Shown: in pieces, positions 18,760-45,425 of the stretch
Numbering within the stretch: position 1 is the first letter of the stretch
Layout of the letters: the number at the start of each line of letters is the position of its first letter
Assembly (NCBI GenBank): GCA_027485815.1
Contig: JAIXQE010000092.1
Coordinates: 1-64,000, forward strand
Direction: 5' to 3'
From: Opitutaceae bacterium
GTDB taxonomy: Bacteria > Verrucomicrobiota > Verrucomicrobiia > Opitutales > Opitutaceae
DNA length: 64,000 nucleotides
Made by a program: the position numbers and the translations under genes
The notes under the pieces: model-generated
What the model was told of the DNA's origin: nothing
The model's input: the letters and a program-made list of their open reading frames with translations, nothing else
The model's database searches: none

Positions 18760-18798
18760 CCGCCCCGCGCGCGCTTCGGCATTGCTTTCCGGCGGCCC

Positions 18799-18818
18799 TA
18801 GTGTCCACTTGGACACTA
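18799..18818 (+). promoter_or_regulatory. Candidate LexA operator (SOS box), perfect palindrome
   Basis: TAGTGTCCACTTGGACACTA; 9-bp arms around CT, immediately abutting the lexA ATG. Confidence 0.85.
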
Positions 18819-19435
18819 TGAACGACCAGCTCACCGGGCGCCAGCAGCAGGTCCTCGGCTTCATCCAGTCCCACCACCGCGAGCACGGCGTGGCCCCCTC
18901 GCTGCGCGAAATCCAGGCCCACTTCGGCCTCGCCAGCCCCTTCGGCATCAAGCGGCACGTCGACGCGCTGATCGGCAAGGGCGCGCTCCGCCGCCTCGAG
19001 GGCAAGGCCCGCGGACTGCTCCCCCCCACCCCGCCCGCCCCCGCCGGCATCCCCCTCTACGGCACGATCCCCGCCGGCCTGCCCGCGGCGCAGGAGCAGG
19101 AACCGGACGCCTTCGTGCCCCTCGACCCCGCGACGCTGGGCATCCACGCGGCCGCCCCGCTCTTCGCCCTCCGGGTGCGCGGGGACTCGATGACCGGCGC
19201 CGGCATCCTCGACCGGGACGTGGTGTTCCTCACGCCGCGCCAACCCCGCCCGCGCGAGATCGTCGCCGCGCTGATCGACGGGGAGTCCACGCTCAAGCGC
19301 TACCTGCTCCAGCGCGGGCGCCCGTTCCTGCGCGCCGAGAACCCCCGCTACCCGGACCTGCTGCCCGCCGAGGAGCTGGTGATTCAAGGGGTGATGGTCG
19401 GCCTCCTGCGCGCCGGCCCGGGCGCCCCCGGCTGA
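18818..19435 (+). CDS. lexA: LexA SOS repressor
   Basis: HTH VAPSLREIQAHFGLASPFGIKRHVDAL; cleavage-type AG; catalytic RGDSM and Lys in ESTLKRYL. Confidence 0.93.
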   Translation: MNDQLTGRQQQVLGFIQSHHREHGVAPSLREIQAHFGLASPFGIKRHVDALIGKGALRRLEGKARGLLPPTPPAPAGIPLYGTIPAGLPAAQEQEPDAFVPLDPATLGIHAAAPLFALRVRGDSMTGAGILDRDVVFLTPRQPRPREIVAALIDGESTLKRYLLQRGRPFLRAENPRYPDLLPAEELVIQGVMVGLLRAGPGAPG

Positions 19436-20201: not shown

Positions 20202-21683
20202 GTGTTCGCCGTGCTCCAGCTGGAAGCGTTTGCCCTGCAGGCCGCCCTGCGGACCGGAGCGCCCGTGCCCGGGACGCAGCCGGCGGGCCTGCTCACGGGC
20301 CTGGACCGCCAGACCGGACTGGGCGAGTGCAACCGCGCCGCCCGCGCCGCGGGCCTCAACGCGGGGATGTCCGTCGCCCAAGCCCTGGCCCGCTGCCCCG
20401 GGCTGCTGCTCCGCGCCGCGGATCCCGCGGCGGAGGCAGAGGCCACGGCCGTGCTGCTGGCCGCGGCGCTCACCCTTTCGCCGACGGTGGAGGCCACGGC
20501 GGGGGGGTGCTGCACGATCGACCTCCGGGGCACCGATCCGGCCGGGCGCCGGTCCGCGGCGGAGGCGGCGGTGCGGGCGCTCGCGGCGACCAGACTGGAG
20601 GCCAGCGCGGGCGTCGCCCGCACGCCGCAGCTGGCGGCTTACGCGGCTCGCTGGGCCGGGGAAAACGCCCTGCCGGGCGGATTCCTCGCGGTGGAGGAGG
20701 AGGCTGCCTTCCTCGCCCGCCTGCCCCTCGATTATGCGGACCCCTCGCCGGCGCAGGCCGCCCGGCTCGCCGGCTGGGGCATCCACACCTTGGGCGAGCT
20801 GACCTCGCTCACGGCCGCCGGCCTGACCCGCCGCCTCGGCCGCGAAGGCCGCGAACTCTGGGACCGCGCCCGGGGCGGGGACCCCCGGCCGCTGCGGCGC
20901 CACGAGCCGCCCGGCTGCTTCCGCGCGGACCTGGACCTCGAGCTGGGCGTCGAGACCCTGCCGGCCCTGCTGCCGCCGCTGGAGCGTCACGTGGCCCGCC
21001 TCGCCCTCGAACTGCAGGCGGCCGGCCTCGCCGCGGGCGGACTGGACCTGGAACTGCGGCTGGAGGACGGCCCCACCCAGCGCGCCCAGCTCCGCCTGCC
21101 GGTGCCGACGGCCGCGCCCGCACCGCTCCAGCGGGCCCTCGAGACCCATCTGTCCGGGCTCCGGACCGCGGCGCCCGTGCGGGGCTGGAGCCTGCGCGTG
21201 GAGGCGGTGCGAGCGCCCGTCCGCCAGCAGGATTTCCTGTCCGGCGGGCTGCGGGATCCGCACGCCTTCACGGAAACCCTCGCCCGGGTGGCGGCCCTCG
21301 TCGGCGCGGACCGCGTCGGCACCCCCGTGCCCGCCGACACCCACCGCCCCGATGCGGCGGTGCTCGTCCCGCCGCCCAGGCTGCTGGAGGACGCCCCCGT
21401 GGCGCCGGCCGGCGCCATCGGCCTGCCGCTGCGCCGATTTCGCCCGCCGTTGCCGGCGCGCCTGAGCTTCGCGCCGGCCTCCGGACGCCCCGCCCACGTG
21501 TGGACGGAACGGTTCTCCGGCCCGGTGACCGAGGCGCGGGGACCGTGGTGCGCGAGCGGCGACTGGTGGGAACCGGCCCGCGCCTGGGCGCGGGTCGAAT
21601 GGGACGTCGCGCTGACCGGGGGCGGCCTCTACCGGCTCATCGGGGAACGCGAGGCCTGGTTCGTCGAGGGCGAATACGACTGA
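20202..21683 (+). CDS. imuB: ImuB, Y-family polymerase-like protein, GTG start
   Basis: GLTGLDRQTGLGECNRAARAAGLNAGMSVAQALARCPGL family layout; C-terminus GLYRLIGEREAWFVEGEYD; catalytic acidic residues apparently absent. Confidence 0.9.
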   Translation: MFAVLQLEAFALQAALRTGAPVPGTQPAGLLTGLDRQTGLGECNRAARAAGLNAGMSVAQALARCPGLLLRAADPAAEAEATAVLLAAALTLSPTVEATAGGCCTIDLRGTDPAGRRSAAEAAVRALAATRLEASAGVARTPQLAAYAARWAGENALPGGFLAVEEEAAFLARLPLDYADPSPAQAARLAGWGIHTLGELTSLTAAGLTRRLGREGRELWDRARGGDPRPLRRHEPPGCFRADLDLELGVETLPALLPPLERHVARLALELQAAGLAAGGLDLELRLEDGPTQRAQLRLPVPTAAPAPLQRALETHLSGLRTAAPVRGWSLRVEAVRAPVRQQDFLSGGLRDPHAFTETLARVAALVGADRVGTPVPADTHRPDAAVLVPPPRLLEDAPVAPAGAIGLPLRRFRPPLPARLSFAPASGRPAHVWTERFSGPVTEARGPWCASGDWWEPARAWARVEWDVALTGGGLYRLIGEREAWFVEGEYD

Positions 21684-44210: not shown

Positions 44211-45425
44211 TCAGCCGCCCGCCGTCCGGGGCCCGGAGGCGGGAAAGCAGATCCGGCCCACCGCCTCGTCGAAGTCGGCCGCCCCGCGCAGGATCTCGAT
44301 CTCCAGCCGCAGGTAATACAGCGGCAGCGGGCACGGCAGGTCGTCCCGGATGCGGACCGCGTCCTTTTCCGTGGTGACGAGGCACTCGGCGCCGTCGCGG
44401 GCGGCCTGCGCGAAAAGCTGCCCGAGGTCCTCCTCGCCGAAGCGGTAGTGGTCGAGGAATCGCTCGCGGCCGGCCAGCACCGCCCCGAGGTCGCGGAGGA
44501 ACTTCTCGAAGCTCTCCGGCGTGGCGATGCCGCTGAAGGCGAACACGCGCCGGCCCTGCAGGAAGGCGAGCGGCTCCCGCCCGCCCGGCGCCTCCTCGGG
44601 ACGCCCGAACCGGCGGAGGTGCCGCGGCCGGTGGGCGCATTCGATGACGTCCGCCGCGGGGTTGTGGCTGGCGATCACCCGCTCCAGCTCCGGGTCCCTC
44701 CGGCCGTCGGACTTGGTGAGGAAGACGTAGTGGGCGCGCCGGAGGTGCTTCACCGGCTCGCGCAGGATGCCGCGGGGCAGGAGGTGCCCGTTGCCGAAGG
44801 GGTTGGTCTTGTCGATCAGCAGCAGGTTCAGGCTGCCCTTCAGCGGCAGGTACTGGAACCCGTCGTCGAGCACGAGCGTGTCGCAGCCGAAGCGCCGCAC
44901 CGCGTAACGGCCGGCCTGGACGCGGTTCTTGTCCACGAGGACAACCACGCCGGGCAGGTTCCGCGCGAGCATCCAGGGCTCGTCGCCGGCCTCGTCGCTG
45001 CCGAGGAGCAGCCGTTCCCCGTCGCTCACGATGCGGGGCGGGGGCGGCTCGGCGTGGGTGAGCCGCCACCACGCACGGCGCCAGAGGGGGGCCCCGCGGC
45101 TCTTGTAACCGCGGCTGAGGATCGCGACGCGGCGGCCGCGGTCGCGGAGGGCGCGCGCGAACTTCTCCACCACCGGCGTCTTGCCCGTGCCCCCGACCGT
45201 GAGGTTGCCGACCACGACCACGAGGCAACCGAGCGGCTGGTCATGCAGGATGCGCTGCCGGTAGAGCCAGGCGCGCGACTGCGCCGCCGCGCTGAACAGC
45301 CAGGACAGGCCCTGGAGGAAGCCGCCGTAGATCGCCGTGCCCGCGCCCGCGCGCCGCCCATAGATCACGTCCACGGTGAAAAGCTCGAGGGCGTTGAGCT
45401 GCTTCTTGAACCAGGAGGAGGACAT
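44211..45425 (-). CDS. lpxK: Tetraacyldisaccharide 4'-kinase
   Basis: [41 protein letters not shown]. Confidence 0.94.

Follow-up and report, generated by a model that had tools for sequence, protein, structure and literature searches.

The window, by which we mean the whole 64,000-nucleotide stretch analyzed, comes from a freshwater Opitutae-type bacterium and contains the gene order lexA-imuA-imuB-dnaE2, with all genes on one strand and lexA first (Table 1). The lexA product scored 126 bits against TIGR00498 (NCBIfam; cut-off 111) and exceeded the cut-offs of PF01726 and PF00717 (Pfam). It has the helix-turn-helix and S24 peptidase domains of a LexA repressor, and its cleavage site and catalytic dyad are intact.

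Table 1 Features of the lexA promoter and the mutagenesis cassette.
Feature	Coordinates	Strand	Basis
Probable -35-like element TTGCTT	18782..18787	+	Column conservation in the genus, suggesting function
Very probable LexA operator of lexA	18799..18818	.	Sequence; same position at congeneric lexA, 25/25
Operator core TGTCCACTTGGACA	18802-18815	.	Within the 18799..18818 palindrome
lexA, 205 aa; helix-turn-helix SPFGIKRHVDAL; cleavage pair A86-G87; catalytic S124, K160	18818..19435	+	Profiles, residues
imuA-like, RecA-like fold, 223 aa	19513..20184	+	PF00154 above cut-off; NCBIfam ImuA weak, below cut-off; cassette position
imuB-like Y-family polymerase homologue; GTG start likely	20202..21683	+	NCBIfam Pol IV models, all below cut-off
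dnaE2-like error-prone DNA polymerase, 1070 aa	21692..24904	+	NF004225, 1059.8 bits (cut-off 939)

The palindrome in front of lexA is TAGTGTCCACTTGGACACTA. Its 9-bp arms are exact around a central CT and it ends on the A of the lexA ATG, in agreement with the preliminary description of a perfect palindrome abutting the lexA start codon. The bases flanking the core, G (18801) and C (18816), are both invariant. The LexA box of Verrucomicrobia is reportedly TGTTC-N4-GAACA, and the lexA operator differs from it by one base per half-site, having C/G instead of T/A at base 4. Perfect palindromes with 9-bp arms and a gap of 2 were seen four times in the window, while about 1.1 were expected from a simulated window of the same composition. 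Palindrome length alone is thus not rare in this GC-rich DNA, and the case for an operator rests on position and conservation. The -35-like element starts 20 bp and ends about 14 bp ahead of the operator core; across the genus it reads TTGC in most genomes, and its first T is present in 25/25. With a usual spacer, this arrangement would probably bring the -10 element and the start point into or beside the operator, and transcription may start at the ATG or close to it.

Of the 27 genomes of the genus, 26 have a LexA orthologue, and 25 of these offered usable upstream DNA. A box fitting GTGTNCANNTGNACAC precedes the lexA start codon in all 25 (two have G for A at base 6), and in 22 of them the core begins 16 nt from the ATG. 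The earlier proposal of a Verrucomicrobia-type LexA operator is therefore very probably correct: a 14-bp palindrome of the form TGT.C-N4-G.ACA stands at the same place before lexA throughout the sample and also at recA, and it agrees with the reported type save at base 4, which is variable among orthologous operators. In the genus, boxes of this type occur at lexA, recA and a radical-SAM gene (PA0069 family), as well as at imuA in some genomes. The start codon of the radical-SAM gene itself (L203-L221) usually lies within its LexA box (TGTTCAAATGAACA), so that base 4 of the box also decides whether codon 2 encodes Asn, His or Asp. One genome given as 100% complete (G020) has no LexA match, yet carries boxes at recA (TGTTCAAGTGAACA) and at the radical-SAM gene, which may reflect lexA loss or an assembly gap. 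In another (G004), 127 matches to TGTYCN4GRACA (e.g. L141, L264-L267) were rejected as operators; most belong to a dispersed element of ~150 bp that includes two hairpins (around CCCTGTCCGTGAGGACAGGG and CCCGCTGCTCACGCAGCGGG).

At lexA, 18 of the 25 boxes are TGTTC/GAACA and 7 are TGTCC/GGACA. The latter form is found in the clade of the window (G000, G007, G009, G010, G019 and G021, with LexA identities of 94-98%) and in G001 (75-76%). To account for this distribution, a maximum-likelihood LexA tree requires two changes, both forced by well-supported branches, which indicates that the TGTCC form at lexA arose twice. All six clade members have TGTCC at lexA and TGTTC at recA, where the box is TGTTCAAATGAACA beside TTGACG in each. 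In G001, whose recA upstream sequence was absent from the comparison, the box of the radical-SAM gene is TGTTCGCATGAACA. Joining of lexA to imuA (cassette fusion) was rejected as the cause of the variant box, since lexA-imuA adjacency is common in genomes with TGTTC. Codon 2 of lexA (18821-18823 in the window) is AAC in 7/7 TGTCC genomes and in 1/18 TGTTC genomes, which mostly have AGC.

Base composition was compared over 66 operators (132 half-sites) of lexA, recA and the radical-SAM gene. Each site was the best match to TGTNCANNTGNACA near the start, and two radical-SAM genes with no good match were excluded. T1, G2, T3 and C5 are present in 132/132 half-sites and A6 in 120/132, whereas base 4 is T in 98, C in 17, G in 11 and A in 6, a contrast somewhat flattered by the best-match choice, which favors the fixed letters. 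Strong and fixed in position, the lexA and recA sites by themselves show variation of base 4 against a fixed core (T36 C14 at lexA; T43 G3 A2 at recA, per half-site). Of the 26 genomes that have at least two operators, 18 have different base-4 letters at different operators. Variants at recA include TGTGC/GAACA in G017, G018 and G025 and TGTACACGTGTACA in G022, and those of the radical-SAM box include TGTCCAGATGGACA in G005 and TGTGCAGATGCACA in G011. Half-changed sites are common at recA and the radical-SAM gene, whereas in each of the two lexA origins the half-sites changed jointly. Judged from these alignments, natural variation within the core of the LexA box in the genus falls at base 4, whose letter is promoter-specific.

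The genome containing the window (4.08 Mb, 97% complete) was examined by pattern and protein searches. It encodes one copy of the LexA DNA-binding domain (PF01726), and on this single match a two-LexA system of the P. putida type and a second LexA acting behind the variant box were rejected. An exact TGTTCN4GAACA occurs once, as the TGTTCAAATGAACA box of the recA promoter, directly following TTGACG. The pattern with base 4 left free, TGTNCANNTGNACA, gave three matches in the genome and its reversed control gave none. Two of the matches are the lexA and recA boxes, and the third (C105:9865) was rejected as an operator as it sits inside argH. The preliminary description had proposed a genome-wide scan for TGTCCN4GGACA near other SOS genes, and this computation found no further copy near any of them, an outcome that the description had named as refuting its interpretation. 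The three remaining copies were rejected as regulon members; all are inside unrelated coding sequence (lpxK, at 44930 in the window; a TonB receptor gene; and an acyltransferase/AMP-binding gene). The clade of the window has no orthologue of the radical-SAM gene that is boxed in most of the genus. The clear LexA boxes of the genome number only two, although weaker ones may have been missed, so the SOS regulon may be very small. The visible regulon consists of recA and the lexA cassette.

We consider it highly likely that the palindrome is an ordinary autoregulatory operator of Verrucomicrobia type serving the single LexA of this genome, with a promoter-specific base 4 and not a changed specificity. 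A LexA dimer on the palindrome would cover the stretch between the conserved TTGC element at -35 and the start codon of lexA and block initiation, and the bound repressor would keep lexA-imuA-imuB-dnaE2 silent, presumably as one transcript. Upon DNA damage, RecA filaments would induce LexA self-cleavage at A86-G87 by S124/K160, thereby opening the cassette. The operator of recA similarly fills the space just after its TTGACG -35 element. The working form in the genus would be GTGTNCANNTGNACAC with tolerance at the fourth base of each half-site, by which the TGTCC site at lexA and the TGTTC site at recA are readily seen as two sites of one LexA. Simple tolerance leaves the joint change of both halves of the lexA operator unexplained; such a change may reflect chance or a tuning of affinity at the autoregulated cassette.

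Two refinements of the operator reading address this change. Neutral GC drift at a base that tolerates change, to which we give nearly even credence, would fit the tolerance of base 4 and the GC content of the clade (0.69-0.72 at the sampled loci), which is near the top of the range in the genus. However, the GC-rich genomes G026 (0.70) and G022 (0.69) retain TGTTC at lexA, the recA box of the clade itself keeps T/A, and a symmetric change requires two hits. A more tentative refinement is promoter-specific tuning, in which C/G at base 4 would alter affinity so that repression of the cassette is tighter or looser than that of recA, which would fix the order of induction. The gene-by-gene variation of base 4 within genomes and the repeated, symmetric change at lexA are consistent with such tuning, and in E. 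coli the strength of the box determines the timing of derepression (PMC9578287). In contrast, the many half-changed sites at the radical-SAM gene give its variation a loose appearance. In its fullest form, the twice-arisen T-to-C/A-to-G change at lexA would be adaptive and promoter-specific, resetting both LexA autoregulation and the mutagenic cassette against recA in a genome with an SOS regulon reduced to two operators; we regard this as rather unlikely.

The preliminary description had suggested instead a lineage-specific operator specificity, with LexA and the box co-varying, such that the protein would have shifted to prefer C/G at base 4. The symmetric change fixed in six clade genomes and its second origin in G001 would suit such a shift, as would the residues at position 44, where V is present in 6/7 TGTCC and 2/18 TGTTC genomes (Fisher p 0.001, uncorrected for only two origins). 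This enrichment would fit slight co-variation, but it is weak given the two origins and the fact that the LexA of the window has I44 with a TGTCC box. The recognition helix SPFG(I/V)KRHVDAL occurs with TGTCC and TGTTC boxes alike, the helix in the window being equal to that of TGTTC genomes such as G023. The sole fixed difference in the DNA-binding domain between the two sets of genomes is S18, placed in helix 1 by alignment. Co-variation is thus not supported, as the helix does not differ consistently between the sets. Neither is a lineage-specific specificity, because recA retains TGTTC/GAACA in 6/6 clade genomes and the new box is not carried by the regulon as a whole, TGTCC standing at no other SOS gene of the genome. 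We judge a shift of specificity highly improbable. Other genera or orders with a differing helix can differ at other box bases, as in TGCTC/GAGCA with SSFAAKRHLDAL (L269) and TGATC/GATCA with SPNAAAKHLAAL (L037). The LexA of L269 (genome G094) is 75% identical, and its box, TAGTGCTCAAATGAGCACTA, is changed at the third base; on these sequences it is a better candidate for real box-helix co-variation than the LexA of the window. Lastly, the palindrome might have arisen by chance or serve translation at the start codon, where the A-to-G change gives GGA just before the ATG. Such a reading would agree with the commonness of 9-bp-arm palindromes in the window, but is extremely improbable in view of the motif in the recA and radical-SAM promoters and its near-invariant position in 25 genomes.

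For the Verrucomicrobia LexA box, the comparison reveals a core base that is free to vary and does so gene by gene under one LexA, and a divergent box at a single promoter should accordingly not be taken for a shift in specificity. An apparently two-operator natural SOS system also offers a setting for the study of operator strength. Set against the Verrucomicrobia consensus, the boxes described here share the 14-bp palindrome, the N4 spacer and the fixed TGT and C5, while the lexA box of the window has C/G at base 4, and the genus has mostly A..T at the inner edges and G..C at the outer flanks. The second LexA of G108 (L314) has the box AGGTGTCCGAATGGACACCT, with a common TGTCC-N4-GGACA core before lexA, but is unlike the LexA of the window, with 49% identity, the helix SHNAARKHVQAL and a place as one of two LexAs in its genome. 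This distant LexA has its own TGTCCGAATGGACA box, and G108 and several other genomes of the family carry two LexAs. The lexA2 cassette of P. putida has the order lexA-imuA-imuB-dnaE2 (PMC3901139), which is shared by the cassette in the window, with lexA first in both. The two LexAs of P. putida have differing boxes (PMC9578287), whereas the genome of the window has one LexA, apparently serving recA too.
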